Part shown: one piece after another, positions 55,575 through 63,710 of the stretch
Position numbering within the stretch: the stretch's first letter is position 1
How the letters are laid out: each line of letters begins with the position of its first letter
NCBI RefSeq assembly: GCF_013283195.1
Contig: NZ_JABEKT010000001.1
Coordinates: forward strand, 2,576,509 to 2,640,508
Direction of reading: 5' to 3'
DNA length: 64,000 bases
From: Ensifer adhaerens
GTDB taxonomy: Bacteria > Pseudomonadota > Alphaproteobacteria > Rhizobiales > Rhizobiaceae
The notes under the pieces: generated by a model
What the model saw: only the letters and a program-made list of their open reading frames with translations
The model's database searches: none
What the model was told of the DNA's origin: nothing
Made by a program: the position numbers and the translations under genes

Positions 55575-58559
<2,985 letters not shown>

Positions 58560-58625
58560 GTCTTAGGAAGACTGGGCGCTCAGGCCCGCAATACGGCGAG
58601 CCATCCTGTGAAAGAGAGCCCAGCG

Positions 58626-58674
58626 CAATCTCCCCCCTTTATGTGGGAGATGTCCGCTAGGACAGAAGGGGTCC
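58626..58674. repeat. Rhizobial palindromic repeat, ATCTCCCCCC...GGACAGA type
   Basis: AATCTCCCCCCTTTATGTGG, then GAGATGTCCGCTAGGACAGA and AGGGGTC. This resembles a dispersed rhizobial intergenic element containing two nested inverted repeats (CTCCC/GGGAG and GTCC/GGAC). It lies between uvrB and the AT-rich cassette, close to the point where composition changes. Confidence 0.65.
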
Positions 58675-58817
58675 CAAAAGCCCGATCTCGACGAACGGAG
58701 CTGTGAGTGCTTCCGGATCCGCTCCAAAGAACGATCGTATTTCGCCTGGGACACCGGAGCGGCAGCCAAGTTAACAAGCTAATCTTCTTGCGCACGTAAA
58801 CGGCAAAAAAATCAGAC

Positions 58818-59414
58818 CTAAGCACCAATCAATTCTTTCGCACTTCCTGATATGCTTTCAATATACTTCACAAAAAAGGAAATATAGTTCCTAACGTCAG
58901 TTAGAGAGACATCATTTGCTTCATCATTGTGATGAACTATATTGTTGCGCTTTTCGACGACGGCGCCAACAATTCCCTTAACGGCATCGAAATCACCGCT
59001 CGCGCTGATATCACATCCCAGGAGCTCGAACAGTTTGATTGCCTTCCATGGGTTGGCCGAAAGCTTCTCACTCACAGCTTTCTCATCAATATTCAGCAAA
59101 AACCTATCATACTTCGAGTGCTTCTTTCCATCAAAACCATCCCTATGGACACTCCAAGCAATGATATTATTGGATACGTTAGTAGATGAAAGCCTTTGAG
59201 ACATCGTTCGAACGATGACCATCGCAGTATCCTTCAGGCATGCTTCAGTTATTGCGCAAAGATTTATCAGATACGACTTGGTGTAGAAGTTTATATTATC
59301 CGCGAAAAGTCGATCCGGCGGCTCCGATAGAACCCTTTGCTCAGTGCGCTCAATAATTTCCGCTAGCTTGCTCAGCTGACTGGCATAGAGTTGCAAAACC
59401 TGAGCGGGCATCAC
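58818..59414 (-). CDS. HEPN-domain protein of a two-gene DUF262 cassette
   Basis: A 198-residue helical protein of the MAE_28990-like HEPN group. The HEPN active-site motif R-x4-H is intact: R156-N-N-I-V-H161 in VEKRNNIVHHNDEA. An earlier helix has the typical INLCAITEACLKD stretch. HEPN proteins of this kind are metal-independent RNases in toxin, abortive-infection and defence modules. Its start overlaps the DUF262 gene stop by 4 nt, so the pair is translationally coupled, with the DUF262 protein made first. It is strongly AT-richer than neighbours, which points to horizontal acquisition. Function is inferred. Confidence 0.8.
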   Translation of the reverse strand: MMPAQVLQLYASQLSKLAEIIERTEQRVLSEPPDRLFADNINFYTKSYLINLCAITEACLKDTAMVIVRTMSQRLSSTNVSNNIIAWSVHRDGFDGKKHSKYDRFLLNIDEKAVSEKLSANPWKAIKLFELLGCDISASGDFDAVKGIVGAVVEKRNNIVHHNDEANDVSLTDVRNYISFFVKYIESISGSAKELIGA

Positions 59415-60448
59415 ACCAACGCCTTATCCAAAAGAGCATTCCAAAGCTCTGTACGACGCGCGATTGAAGCCTTCATTTGCAAGCCACCAGAGGTCGCTTT
59501 TTTGAAATCAGGGGAAGCGCATAGCTCTTTATATGCCTCTACAATACCAACTCGGTGCTTCTCTAAGTTCTCCTTGCTGTGCGCTACTAAAGTCTGCATC
59601 AGTAGATCATAATAGACCATCCCCTGACGCCGCCTTGCCTTGTTCATATCTACAAACAGTTCGCCGCCAAATACTACCTTGCATTTTTCTAATGCATCAA
59701 GGAAATGCAACCTTCTCGCTTTGACATCATCGACTGAAGACTCGGCATTAGTCTCCATGAATTCGTCAAGAAACTCTCGCAAATTATTCTTGTAATCCGC
59801 AGATCTTTCTCTGAAGGCAAAGAACCTCAAGACCTGCTCCTCCCCTTCCCTGCTGTCCTTTACTTTTTCTCCGTTCGCACCGACACCGAAATTCTTTATT
59901 TCCTCGACTTCGGATAGCTCTTTCAAAAGTTCGTCCAAGGCACCAGGGTACAAGGCATGCCTTATCTCTTGGTCGGACAGCTTAACGGCCCCTTGATTTA
60001 GACGTGAAAAAATCTCCCTCACGAGCTTCTTTGGATTTTCTTTCCTGAGGACAATACATCTTATAGTGGTAGCCTCCAACTCTGACTTCAGTGAGCCAAG
60101 TTCCGAGAATCTTCTCCCCTCAAGTTCCTTGAAGGTCGTCAGACCCTCCAATGCAAAATCATCGTTAAAAAACTTCATTATTGTTGTGATGCGCTGAACC
60201 CCATCAATGACCATGTGGCGCGATTGTTCATCCTCGGCGAAGTAGCAGGATGGCAAAGGAATGCGCATCAAGCACGACTCTATGAACTTCGATGACCTTT
60301 CCCAACCCTCTTTGTCCCACTTGTAGGCACGCTGAAAGTCCGGATTGAGAATTAGTTTGTTGGCCTTCACGCGCGAGACAAGCGTTTCAAAAGGATAGTC
60401 AATTGGATAAAGATTTAGTGTCTTTCCATTGCCCGAATTACTATCCAT
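59411..60448 (-). CDS. DUF262 (GmrSD-N/ParB-like) protein
   Basis: A 345-residue protein with the DUF262 signature: NPDFQRAYKWDKE near residues 35-47, HMVIDGVQRITTIMKFF near 78-94 with the key D82-G-x-Q-R motif, and REIFSRLNQGAVKLSDQEIRHALYPG near 145-170. DUF262 forms a ParB-like nuclease/NTPase fold and is the N-terminal half of GmrSD modification-dependent restriction enzymes. The GmrSD C-terminal HNH (DUF1524) part is absent, so the HEPN partner may supply nuclease action. Low GC and an isolated position between uvrB and a tyrS fragment suggest an acquired defence module. Confidence 0.85.
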   Translation of the reverse strand: MDSNSGNGKTLNLYPIDYPFETLVSRVKANKLILNPDFQRAYKWDKEGWERSSKFIESCLMRIPLPSCYFAEDEQSRHMVIDGVQRITTIMKFFNDDFALEGLTTFKELEGRRFSELGSLKSELEATTIRCIVLRKENPKKLVREIFSRLNQGAVKLSDQEIRHALYPGALDELLKELSEVEEIKNFGVGANGEKVKDSREGEEQVLRFFAFRERSADYKNNLREFLDEFMETNAESSVDDVKARRLHFLDALEKCKVVFGGELFVDMNKARRRQGMVYYDLLMQTLVAHSKENLEKHRVGIVEAYKELCASPDFKKATSGGLQMKASIARRTELWNALLDKALV

Positions 60449-60707
60449 ATCGTAAGGCCTTTCGCGATTCGTTCGAACTCAGAAAGCTCTTATCAGAATC
60501 TGGCAGATTCAACGAGAGGTCGAGTTTAGGTATGTCACAGCGTGACCTAGTTCCCACGTCCCTGCCAAGATCGCGCTCATCGCTGCCAACTATTATGTGA
60601 CGTCTCCATAGGGAGCGTCGCGTTTCGATTACGCCTTGAAACAAGCCTCCGTCAGGCGGCTCTATTTTGTTAAGTGCTCGCTGGCGGCAATGTCATGGAT
60701 AGCTCTA

Positions 60708-60970
60708 ATGACCCATTCCGACAGCCCCACCGATGCCTTTGAGCCGCGTTCTGCGATCACCCAGACACTAATCGAGCGCGGCTAAATCAGCCAAGTGACC
60801 GACCTCAAGGGCGTCGACAGCGCCCTTGAGGCCTGCATCGTGCCCGCTTATGCCGGCTTCGACGCTACCGCCGACAGCCTGCATGTCCGCCATCTCGTGC
60901 CGATCATGGCGCTTCGCGCGGCTGCAGCAGGCCGGCCACCGGCCTATAGTGGTGATCGGCGGCATTCGCC
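60708..60970 (+). pseudogene. tyrS: Decayed 5' fragment of tyrosyl-tRNA synthetase
   Basis: From ATG 60708 the frame reads MTHSDSPTDAFEPRSAITQT and LIERG, then a TAA stop (60783), then ISQVTDLKGVDSALEACIVP, AYAGFDATADSLHVRHLVPI and MALR. After a one-base insertion near 60917 the next frame gives RLQQAGHRPIVVIGG. These are the N-terminal blocks of TyrRS (family: AYIGFDxTAxSLHVGHL, GHRPIVLMGG). The HIGH-type HVGH is altered to HVRH and the rest of the gene is missing. It is non-functional and adjoins the AT-rich cassette. Confidence 0.82.
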
Positions 60971-60988
60971 CATCACCTCTCGCCTCCT

Positions 60989-61744
60989 CTACACCTTCAT
61001 CTCCGCCAGCGCCCGATGCAACGGCGCATCCGAAATCTGGATGGCACCGGTGAACGGGATGTCCATGTCGAGCACGATGAAGACCGAGCCGGCGATGAAC
61101 AGGGCTGAAACCAGGAACATGGCGACAACCGCGGCATTTTGCGGGGCGCGGTAGCCGAAGCTCGCGAAGACCAGCGTCATCCATGCGATCAGCATGCCGA
61201 TGACAGGCATCGGGATCGCACCTTCCGATTGCTCGACGATCGTCCAGCGTTGATCGACGATGCGGTTATACTGCTCGCGTGCTTCTGCCAGCATGGATTC
61301 ATGGAGGCTGTCGGCCGGCTGGATGGACGCAAGGCTGTTGCCGACAGTGTCCAGCCGCTGCTGTCCGGCGTTGCGCGCTTTATGCAGCGCATCGTTGACG
61401 CGCTCGGGGTTGGCGATCGCCGCCTCCACATAGGCGATCAGATATTGCCGGGCATCGTTGCCGGCGAGGCCATAGCTCCGGAGCGTGCGGTCGAGCAGGA
61501 TCAGGTTGGTGGCAAAGGAATGCACATTGTCGTCGATGCCCTCGAAGGTGTTCTTGGCCGAATTGATCATCAGGCCGAAAACCAGCGACGCCATGACGAC
61601 AAAAATGTTGGCGACGAGCCGCACCACAGTATTGGTATCGTCGTCACGATGCCGCGCGTGCAGCTTGGGGTAGACATGCATCATGCCGAGCGCCGCGACA
61701 CTCAGGCAGAGGAAGGCGGCAACGGCAATCAAGATCGCACTCAT
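60989..61744 (-). CDS. DUF4239 membrane protein
   Basis: A 251-residue protein with an N-terminal helix (MSAILIAVAAFLCLSVAALG), a second at about 40-58 (VRLVANIFVVMASLVFGLMINSAK), a long helical soluble region at about 60-175, and two further helices near 185-225. The DUF4239 hallmark is the INSAKNTFEG stretch after helix two. It resembles bestrophin-like layouts, but no transport has been shown. ATG 61744 is preferred over the in-frame ATG 15 codons upstream, which lies in a basic leader. Confidence 0.8.
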   Translation of the reverse strand: MSAILIAVAAFLCLSVAALGMMHVYPKLHARHRDDDTNTVVRLVANIFVVMASLVFGLMINSAKNTFEGIDDNVHSFATNLILLDRTLRSYGLAGNDARQYLIAYVEAAIANPERVNDALHKARNAGQQRLDTVGNSLASIQPADSLHESMLAEAREQYNRIVDQRWTIVEQSEGAIPMPVIGMLIAWMTLVFASFGYRAPQNAAVVAMFLVSALFIAGSVFIVLDMDIPFTGAIQISDAPLHRALAEMKV

Positions 61745-61803
61745 TCCAGCCCCGCTCCTGCTGCGCCGCCGCCCTCTGGGTCGGGGCAAATCAACGTCCC
61801 CTG

Positions 61804-61907
61804 CTGCGTGTTTCTATCCCTAAATGCTATTCGATTTACGGGTAGAAACATGCAGCAGTTCAAAGTGCTACAGCGCCGCGCGTCCAACAAGACGCGCGGC
61901 GCTGTAG
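61804..61907 (+). repeat. 104-nt dispersed rhizobial repeat, copy B
   Basis: CTGCGTGTTTCTATCCCTAA, then ATGCTATTCGATTTACGGG, TAGAAACATGCAG and AAAGTGCTACAGCG. The 3' half is a perfect 14-bp hairpin, CAGCGCCGCGCGTC with GACGCGCGGCGCTG, followed by TAG. It has the same length and layout as copy A and lies in the gap before the DUF4239 gene. Confidence 0.88.
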
Positions 61908-62043
61908 GATAGGACCTTTGGCGATGCGCGCAACGCCCTCGCGCGCCGAACCTTCGCAATGTCGGATCCAGCGGCCGCTCGAAATTAAGGGCAAGACATT
62001 GCTGCCGGGGCCGGATCATCGCCTGGCGATTGCCGGCCTCACC

Positions 62044-62766
62044 TTAGTTGCCGCCGCTGGCCGTCGCCTGCCCCAGCACCCCCACCAGCGCCTTGCCATC
62101 GGTGAAATAGGGATCGCCGCCGCCGTTACGGCCGGTCTTGGTCGCACCGATGCCGGGGATCTCGTAGGTCGATGCGATCTGCCCGGCCTTCTGCAGGTCT
62201 GACATCACCAGGTTTCGCTCCGCGTCCAGATCCGGGCCGATGTGGTGGGTGATCTGGCCCGTGTCGTGGCTTAAGCCGACGCCGCGGTCGAAGCTGGCCG
62301 AACCGAGCCAGAGCGACCCGCCGCCCTCCGCGGGCTGGTTGCTCAACCAGAAGCGCACATGGTTGCGCTCGTCGGCGCTTTTGCCGACCGGCTTTTCGAA
62401 CGCCAGATCCTGTTTCCGCCCCTCGAAGAACAACGGGCTGACCGGCGCATCGAGGTCGGGCCGATCCAGCACCACGCTCAAGCCGATATCGACAGATGAG
62501 CGGAGCGTGACCTTGTCGGCCGGATCCCAGCCCGCGGCCGCAAAGGCGCGGATAACCTGCTCCTTCGAACCGACGAGGCCGACATTGATGGGGTCGCCGG
62601 GGATATCCTGTTCCGTGGTGGTCACCATGGGGCTGAGACTGTCAATCCGGCTGCGGTCGCGGAAAAGCCAGAGGTCCGGCAGCAGGAAGTAGCTGATCAG
62701 CAGATAGGCTACGAGCCCGGCGGAAAGGGCGCTCAACACTGCACGAAGTTTGCTGTGGCGGGTCAT
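62044..62766 (-). CDS. LssY C-terminal domain protein
   Basis: A 240-residue protein with one N-terminal membrane helix (VLSALSAGLVAYLLISYFLL) and a LssY_C domain. The domain stretches are DPINVGLVGSKEQVIRAFAAAGWDPAD near residues 57-83, KQDLAFEKPVGKSADERNHVRFW near 118-140 and LWLGSASFDRGVGLS near 152-166. LssY was named in Legionella type I secretion loci. The biochemical role of this domain is unknown. It is probably anchored in the inner membrane with the domain in the periplasm. Confidence 0.82.
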   Translation of the reverse strand: MTRHSKLRAVLSALSAGLVAYLLISYFLLPDLWLFRDRSRIDSLSPMVTTTEQDIPGDPINVGLVGSKEQVIRAFAAAGWDPADKVTLRSSVDIGLSVVLDRPDLDAPVSPLFFEGRKQDLAFEKPVGKSADERNHVRFWLSNQPAEGGGSLWLGSASFDRGVGLSHDTGQITHHIGPDLDAERNLVMSDLQKAGQIASTYEIPGIGATKTGRNGGGDPYFTDGKALVGVLGQATASGGN

Positions 62767-62899
62767 ATGCGTTCACCTCGATCCCGGTGCGGCGATATCA
62801 GCTAAACCCGATACGGCCCGGAAAGCAACGGGGCGGCAAACGTGCAATCCCGCCCGCACCAAGCGGGATCGACGGGCTTTCAATCGCGGGGTCAATCGG
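62767..62899. other. Gene-free gap before an inverted repeat copy
   Basis: This stretch lies upstream of the LssY-type gene and contains its promoter. Short open frames carry no motif. It ends at the inverted copy of the 104-nt repeat. Confidence 0.4.
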
Positions 62900-63004
62900 C
62901 TGCAGCGCCGCGCATCAAGTGCGACATGCAGACGCCACCGTAACACTTTCTATTTCCTGAAGAATTCTCTCATCAAATCGATCCGGGCCCAAGGAATTAT
63001 GCAG
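62900..63004 (-). repeat. 104-nt dispersed rhizobial repeat, copy C (inverted, diverged)
   Basis: Read on the minus strand it begins CTGCATAATTCCTTGGGCCC, continues GGATCGATTTGATGAGAG and AAGTGTTACGGTGGCG, and ends GCGCGGCGCTGCAG. It therefore matches copies A and B over the full length but with more substitutions and a weaker hairpin. It lies between the LssY-type and J-domain genes. Confidence 0.75.
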
Positions 63005-63122
63005 GATCGGCAGACCGGCGACGGGCGTCAGGTCCCGAACGGCCGACAGCTCGACCAGGAACGCGCAGCGCCTCTGCCGCAAGTTGCTACCGCGCCGCTT
63101 GTCGACAGGATGCGCGCTGCCT

Positions 63123-63710
63123 CTACTCCGCCGCGTGCGCCTTGGCCTCCAGCGCCTCCAGCTCGTAGGAGTAGCCTTCCAGCATTTCATAGGCCTGCTC
63201 GATGGTCTTGATCTGCTCCTCGGTGGTCTTGATCGCCTCGGCGATCGAGCGGGAGCGCGCGCGCAGCATCGAGCCGAGCACGTCTGTCTCCGGCCGTCGG
63301 CCGAGACGGTCGAGGTGTTTTCGCACCCGGGCGCGGTGACGCTCCAGTTCGAGGATATGGAAGCGGCTCTTGACGATATCGTCGGAGAGTTTGCGGCGCA
63401 TGGCGGCAACGGGATCGAAGCTGCCGGGCTCGCGCTCGTCGAGGATGAAGTCGTTGACCAGCGTCTCAAGCATCATCAGGCCCTTGAGGTCGCGCGGCTC
63501 GGCGAGCTGCGGATCGTAGCCTGTGTCGTCAAAGACCTTCCGGCGCACCGGGTCCTTCAGGAGTTCATAGACCGCCTGCAGCCGGGCAAATTGCTCCGCA
63601 TCGCCGCCAGAGTCGGGATGGGCCGCCTTGGCCGCCTTGCGATAGGCCGTGCGGATGGTCTGGTCGTTCGCGTCGCGGTCTACGCCAAGCATCTCGTAGG
63701 GATCGATCAC
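63123..63710 (-). CDS. J-domain protein with coiled C-terminal region
   Basis: A 195-residue cytoplasmic co-chaperone-like protein. The J domain is at residues 1-62 (YEMLGVDRDANDQTIRTAYRKAAKAAHPDSGG, with the HPD tripeptide at 31-33), which stimulates Hsp70 ATPase. The rest (residues 65-195) is helical and charged (LVNDFILDEREPGSFDP and TTEEQIKTIEQAYEMLEGYSYELEAL), with no zinc-finger or client domain of DnaJ. It is thus a type III J protein, and the specific Hsp70 partner or client is unknown. Confidence 0.88.
   Translation of the reverse strand: MIDPYEMLGVDRDANDQTIRTAYRKAAKAAHPDSGGDAEQFARLQAVYELLKDPVRRKVFDDTGYDPQLAEPRDLKGLMMLETLVNDFILDEREPGSFDPVAAMRRKLSDDIVKSRFHILELERHRARVRKHLDRLGRRPETDVLGSMLRARSRSIAEAIKTTEEQIKTIEQAYEMLEGYSYELEALEAKAHAAE

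Follow-up and report, generated by a model that had tools for sequence, protein, structure and literature searches.

What kind of system do two overlapping, AT-rich genes form beside uvrB in Ensifer adhaerens, and does it serve in defence against phages? The genes, here called A and B, lie in a stretch of 64,000 nucleotides (nt) of contig NZ_JABEKT010000001.1 (positions 2,576,509 to 2,640,508; hereafter the window), in which an initial annotation had proposed a pair of a DUF262 protein and a HEPN protein as a candidate anti-phage module. We find this defence reading well supported, and consider it likely that A and B are a two-gene module working like the PD-T4-2 system, though not one to be filed under that name. 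The idea itself is not new, the domain make-up being that of PD-T4-2 (PMC10952713). The kind was thus already known, and what we add is a separate lineage, its spread over several phyla and a chromosomal hotspot in which the pair is held.

The gene pair and its homologues

The two open reading frames (ORFs) overlap as had been described (Table 1), the GTG start of B occupying positions 59414-59412 and the TGA stop of A positions 59413-59411; the second codon of B is ATG, so that an alternative start (TGATG) is equally possible. Each protein matches a single Pfam family at E <= 1, namely GmrSD_N (PF03235; residues 22-167, 1.7e-24) for A and HEPN_RiboL-PSP (PF18735; 2.1e-20, 73.9 bits against a cutoff of 28.4) for B. 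At the same threshold no DUF1524/HNH domain is found in A or B, and no fused endoRNase L-PSP domain in B, which bears out the description of A as carrying an intact DUF262 signature without the nuclease half of the GmrSD enzymes. The R-x4-H motif is the ribonuclease (RNase) motif of HEPN proteins, and B has both this motif and, by prediction, the helical HEPN fold that together mark a HEPN RNase.

Table 1. Positions of the gene pair, its motifs and the surrounding segment in the window
Feature	Position	Strand	Remarks
Gene A	59411..60448	-	345 amino acids, DUF262/GmrSD_N (ParB/Srx-like nucleoside triphosphatase fold), without DUF1524 half
Gene B	58818..59414	-	198 amino acids, RiboL-PSP-type HEPN, predicted RNase
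Stop of A overlapping start of B	59411..59414	-	GTGA, 4 nt, read from the sequence
D82-G-V-Q-R motif of A	60191..60205	-	Nucleotide pocket in relatives, per literature; invariant in 20/20 aligned rows
R156-N-N-I-V-H161 motif of B	58932..58949	-	R, N and H invariant in 18/18 aligned rows
Variable segment with the pair	58553..60988		62-67 bp there in two congeners
Second tyrosyl-tRNA synthetase gene, decayed 5' fragment	60566..60963	+	The gene itself lies in this slot in eight congeners

That the pair is AT-richer than the chromosome was likewise borne out. Its G+C content is 0.451, against a mean of 0.621 (standard deviation 0.021, minimum 0.542) in a genome sample of 460 segments of 1631 bp, taken from the same contig in 20 stretches that total 400 kb. 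When non-overlapping ORFs of at least 150 amino acids were picked mechanically, A and B were the only ones among 50 in the window with a G+C content below 0.52, and the genome sample held one such ORF among 321. The pair also has a lower G+C content than its flanks at all 25 homologous loci (20/20 without repeats), the gap being small in two AT-rich hosts (L065, L067). The pair is imported, and of foreign composition.

A search with a two-row profile of A, in one genome per species, returned 20 loci, two of which (L070 and L071; 24% identity, no B seen) were excluded from the A subfamily. The remaining 18 genome loci, at 51-63% identity, come from several families of Pseudomonadota, from Bacteroidota and Cyanobacteriota, and from one Geobacter metagenome-assembled genome (Thermodesulfobacteriota). 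The initial annotation had named separation of the homologues and loss of the HEPN motif as grounds for doubt; neither was seen, B following A at 17 of the 18 loci and the motif being kept in intact copies. Both genes are unbroken at 14 loci. At 16 of the 18 (L052-L067) a single-frame A is followed by a B that starts -17 to +30 nt from the end of A, if ATG is taken as the start in L055; here B is truncated in L061 and in two pieces in L064. At the other two, A is in two frames and followed by B (L068), or truncated and without B (L069). The two pieces of B in L064 (9016-10542, Gluconacetobacter diazotrophicus) lie about 680 bp apart, probably through an insertion. On viral contigs both genes are present at 7/7 loci, some of the pairs being identical, and on one such contig (L051) the pair stands between what we take, from our own reading of the sequence, to be a terminase-like gene and HsdR-like and DUF1016-like genes. 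B seldom occurs apart from A: a B profile matches 3/398 genomes of the phylum, which are the present genome, one further genome with A upstream, and one weak match to a different HEPN gene beside a SIR2-like gene.

Alignments were made without the broken copies (L068 and L069 from both sets, L061 and L064 from the B set) and without duplicates or near-duplicates (L072, L074, L075, L077 and L078); the A of L057 was retained though it ends some 15 residues early. In these alignments DGVQR does not vary among A proteins, and R156, N157, H161, N163 and D164 do not vary among the 18 B proteins. Of the broken B copies, L068 has R-x4-H, and the truncated L061 and the first piece of L064 do not. The two proteins are unequally conserved, B being less conserved than A in 153/153 pairwise comparisons of 18 paired loci (mean identities of 39.5 and 61.4%).

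Relation to known DUF262 systems

PD-T4-2 is composed of DUF262 and PF18735 HEPN proteins (PMC10952713) and has been validated against T4, deletion of the system in strain ECOR65 leading to more T4 plaquing (Vassallo et al., 2022; PMC9519451). A and B have the same order, a DUF262-only protein and then a PF18735 HEPN. The PD-T4-2_B model matches 3/398 genomes of the phylum, each with a DUF262 gene upstream, and at all three loci the two genes are adjacent or overlapping, as A and B are. A itself matches PD-T4-2_A in PADLOC (6.5e-45 over residues 27-333) and by profile comparison with hhalign (E of 5e-37). Its best PADLOC model is NsnA (3.6e-77), but since both models match all 30 DUF262 proteins scanned, they are nonspecific and do not decide. 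In a tree of 51 DUF262 proteins (16 of the 20 A rows among them), in which the deeper branches are partly unresolved, the window subfamily, the PD-T4-2 set and the DUF3696-partnered set form separate groups with 100/100 support each; the PD-T4-2 set consists of the three loci found by the model and two added by the look of their HEPN gene.

Such pairs are not confined to this subfamily. A relative of A was present in 43/397 genomes of the order (the present one included), and when the longest ORF just downstream of 29 other best A-relative loci was inspected, PF18735 was found in 19, PF18737 in nine (these counts may overlap), DUF3696/AAA in four and transposase families in one. In each of three plasmid regions that we opened, the DUF262 gene has an annotated HEPN gene as its neighbour, and the HEPN genes of the three plasmid DUF262 pairs scanned have no PADLOC match. 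Taken together, the survey and the plasmid regions indicate that DUF262 followed by HEPN is the common form. Indeed, a survey of HEPN proteins lists 'operon with ParB' for the RiboL-PSP-HEPN family (Anantharaman et al., 2013; PMC3710099). B resembles that family in matching PF18735 and in following a gene of ParB fold (DUF262); the part of the survey consulted gives the operon note only, and the fused endoRNase domain is not present in B.

Menshen combines a DUF262 protein, NsnA, with an OLD/AAA-type partner, NsnB, and resistance by Menshen and by Dazbog requires their DUF262 genes (PMC10952713). A is like NsnA in being a DUF262 protein of that type, with a model that is not specific, but its partner is a HEPN protein, and B has no match to NsnB in PADLOC at E <= 1. 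The four DUF3696/AAA partners do match NsnB (best 5e-111). By profile A is nearer to the four DUF262 proteins with such partners (2e-47) than to PD-T4-2_A, the profiles being small, whereas in the tree the DUF3696-partnered proteins are separate from A.

With GmrSD, BrxU and SspE the pair shares the DUF262 domain with DGxQR, and the predicted fold of A has BrxU and SspE as its best structural matches. The alignment with SspE reaches 3.3 Å over 132 residues, the N-terminal domain being its firm part. The difference lies in the DUF1524 domain, found neither in A nor in B next to it; it is to this domain that cleavage in GmrSD and BrxU is assigned, and in SspE the NTPase (nucleoside triphosphatase) activity of DUF262 sets off a change through which the DUF1524 half is activated (PMC10952713). 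The best structural matches of B are HEPN toxins, with HepT toxins of HEPN-MNT pairs at the top.

Proposed mechanism

Among the matches listed in the literature searched, which did not include bioRxiv, we found no mechanism for DUF262-HEPN systems. We propose that A is a DUF262 NTPase that would serve as a nucleotide-binding switch, both sensor of infection and regulator, and that B is a HEPN RNase that would be kept inactive by, or together with, A. Upon infection B would be released and would cut RNA (of host or phage, or tRNA), so that phage growth would be blocked, probably at the expense of the cell that is infected. In such a scheme B may stand in for the DUF1524 half, by comparison with SspE. 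Nucleotide hydrolysis, RNA cleavage, contact between A and B, the trigger and an abortive outcome are all steps that we infer for the pair, and the DUF262 proteins of the branch to which A belongs may sense or cut modified DNA, as the initial annotation supposed for DUF262 proteins at large. More tentatively still, these pairs could be RNA-targeting relatives of type IV restriction that form a distinct multi-phylum lineage, in which an unusually conserved DUF262 NTPase would respond to a single unvarying sign of infection (for example a modified nucleotide or a mark on the DNA) and license a fast-diverging HEPN RNase that the partner model of PADLOC 2.0.0 does not recognize; the pair would be kept here in a so far unnamed defence hotspot between uvrB and a DnaJ-like gene.

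The chromosomal slot after uvrB

Beside the pair lie uvrB and a gene retained in congeners, and in none of 15 further genomes of the genus does B have a match. In two of them the site is nearly empty, the end of uvrB being followed by 67 bp (G399) or 62 bp (G411) and then by sequence corresponding to the window from 60989 or 60983, respectively; the intervening 2.4 kb is therefore an insertion or a replaced segment. Between uvrB and the DnaJ-like gene (window 58560-63123; L106-L120, L124 and L125), 10/15 congeners have at least one ORF of at least 150 amino acids with a G+C content below 0.52 and five have none, and such ORFs are 16 of the 46 in the slot against one of 321 in the genome sample. 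PADLOC covered 14 of the 16, with 11 matched and three unmatched, and matches (E <= 0.001) occur in eight of the ten congeners that have AT-rich ORFs there: AbiU (G398, best 3.4e-86), LmuB (G403, 4.5e-97, with no other Lamassu gene identified), AriA and AriB (G402, 1.1e-23 and 3.2e-5), a SIR2-kinase protein (G406), SIR2 with STAND (G404, ThsA, 3.4e-7), a Schlafen/AlbA protein (G407), the HEPN of PDC-M34 beside an unmatched STAND-like ATPase (G409) and RmrA (G408, 8.7e-21). PADLOC holds generic and candidate models, so that a single match is weak evidence. The STAND-like ORF of G409, an nSTAND-like ORF (G397) and a DUF4238-like ORF (G400) have no PADLOC match, the latter two lying under the Pfam cutoff. 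Across the congeners compared, this interval appears to be a hotspot for cargo that is AT-rich and mostly defence-like. Four of 15 genomes outside the genus were also inspected, and two of them have such cargo, a retron II-A-like set in the first and a further DUF262 gene in the second, whereas the other two have none.

Some further features of the slot were recorded. The AbiU model is spread over two adjacent ORFs of 177 and 399 amino acids (L110 5538-7290), a split or broken gene, and the AT-rich nSTAND-like and DUF4238-like genes (L113 3141-5057 and L115 6052-8142) are candidate new defence genes. In the different genus of L124 (1447-3149) the other DUF262 gene directly follows uvrB, and the 209-amino-acid gene upstream of it has no PADLOC match. 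The second tyrosyl-tRNA synthetase gene (window 60566-60963; L109 2620-3882; L128) is present in the slot in 8/16 genomes of the genus, one of which has it split in two, with relics in two more, and all 16 have a tyrosyl-tRNA synthetase gene elsewhere that is 56% identical to the slot copy. Genes that we take from our own reading to be IS66-like occur in the slot of some congeners. A dispersed repeat of about 110 bp (window 61800-61908) has many copies in this genome and in congeners, about 76-89% alike among the matches listed, and a short element (window 58616-58671), also present close to this slot in two congeners, is presumably a dispersed palindromic repeat.

Alternative readings

Several observations weigh against a defence module akin to PD-T4-2. 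B has no match to PD-T4-2_B at E <= 1, and that model has no match in the genome; profile comparison of the two with hhalign gives a probability of 1.4 and an E of 0.037, and the only PADLOC row for B is Csx1 (0.029). Foldseek alone gave no match at E <= 0.001, the best being 0.014 for A and 0.39 for B. The hotspot tally covers the uvrB slot alone, without a control interval. Around homologues elsewhere, none of the 25 PADLOC families listed (of 86) has matches at E <= 1e-10 to more than 2/141 neighbours, in a count without a control. The defence neighbourhood expected by the initial annotation is seen in the uvrB slot of the genus; enrichment in other phyla is weak. It is the failure of B in the PD-T4-2_B model, together with the separate group in the tree, that keeps the pair from being filed as PD-T4-2.

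Of the other explanations, one that overlaps with ours is that the pair is a toxin-antitoxin system first and a defence system second, an addiction or stress module in which the HEPN toxin B is neutralized by A. The HepT-like fold of B, its rarity without A and the overlap of the genes with the regulator first all fit such an operon, and we regard this as possible, if doubtful, because A, with its invariant DGVQR, is the better conserved partner in every pair compared, whereas the usual antitoxins are fast-evolving. It is unlikely that A acts in the manner of type IV restriction, recognizing and cutting modified phage DNA with B as an auxiliary effector, since the domain to which cleavage is assigned in GmrSD and BrxU (PMC10952713) was not found, and full-length alignment with BrxU gives a root-mean-square deviation of 14.5-14.9 Å, leaving only the N-terminal domain firm. 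The pair could also have been imported and parked in a permissive slot without serving in defence, as the tyrosyl-tRNA synthetase copies, the presumed IS66-like genes and the five congeners without an AT-rich ORF might suggest; we think this very improbable, given the defence-model matches in most congeners with such ORFs and a domain make-up that is that of a validated system.

Significance

A module working like PD-T4-2 thus remains the reading we prefer, and it adds a well-separated branch to the DUF262-HEPN systems. The 18 aligned natural pairs, in which a conserved sensor is joined to a variable effector, offer a start for finding the trigger. Since the partner model of PADLOC 2.0.0 misses B, and three plasmid HEPN genes are likewise unmatched, present counts of such systems are probably too low. 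Further systems could be sought in the slot after uvrB as well, for instance at the two AT-rich loci (nSTAND-like and DUF4238-like) that PADLOC does not match.
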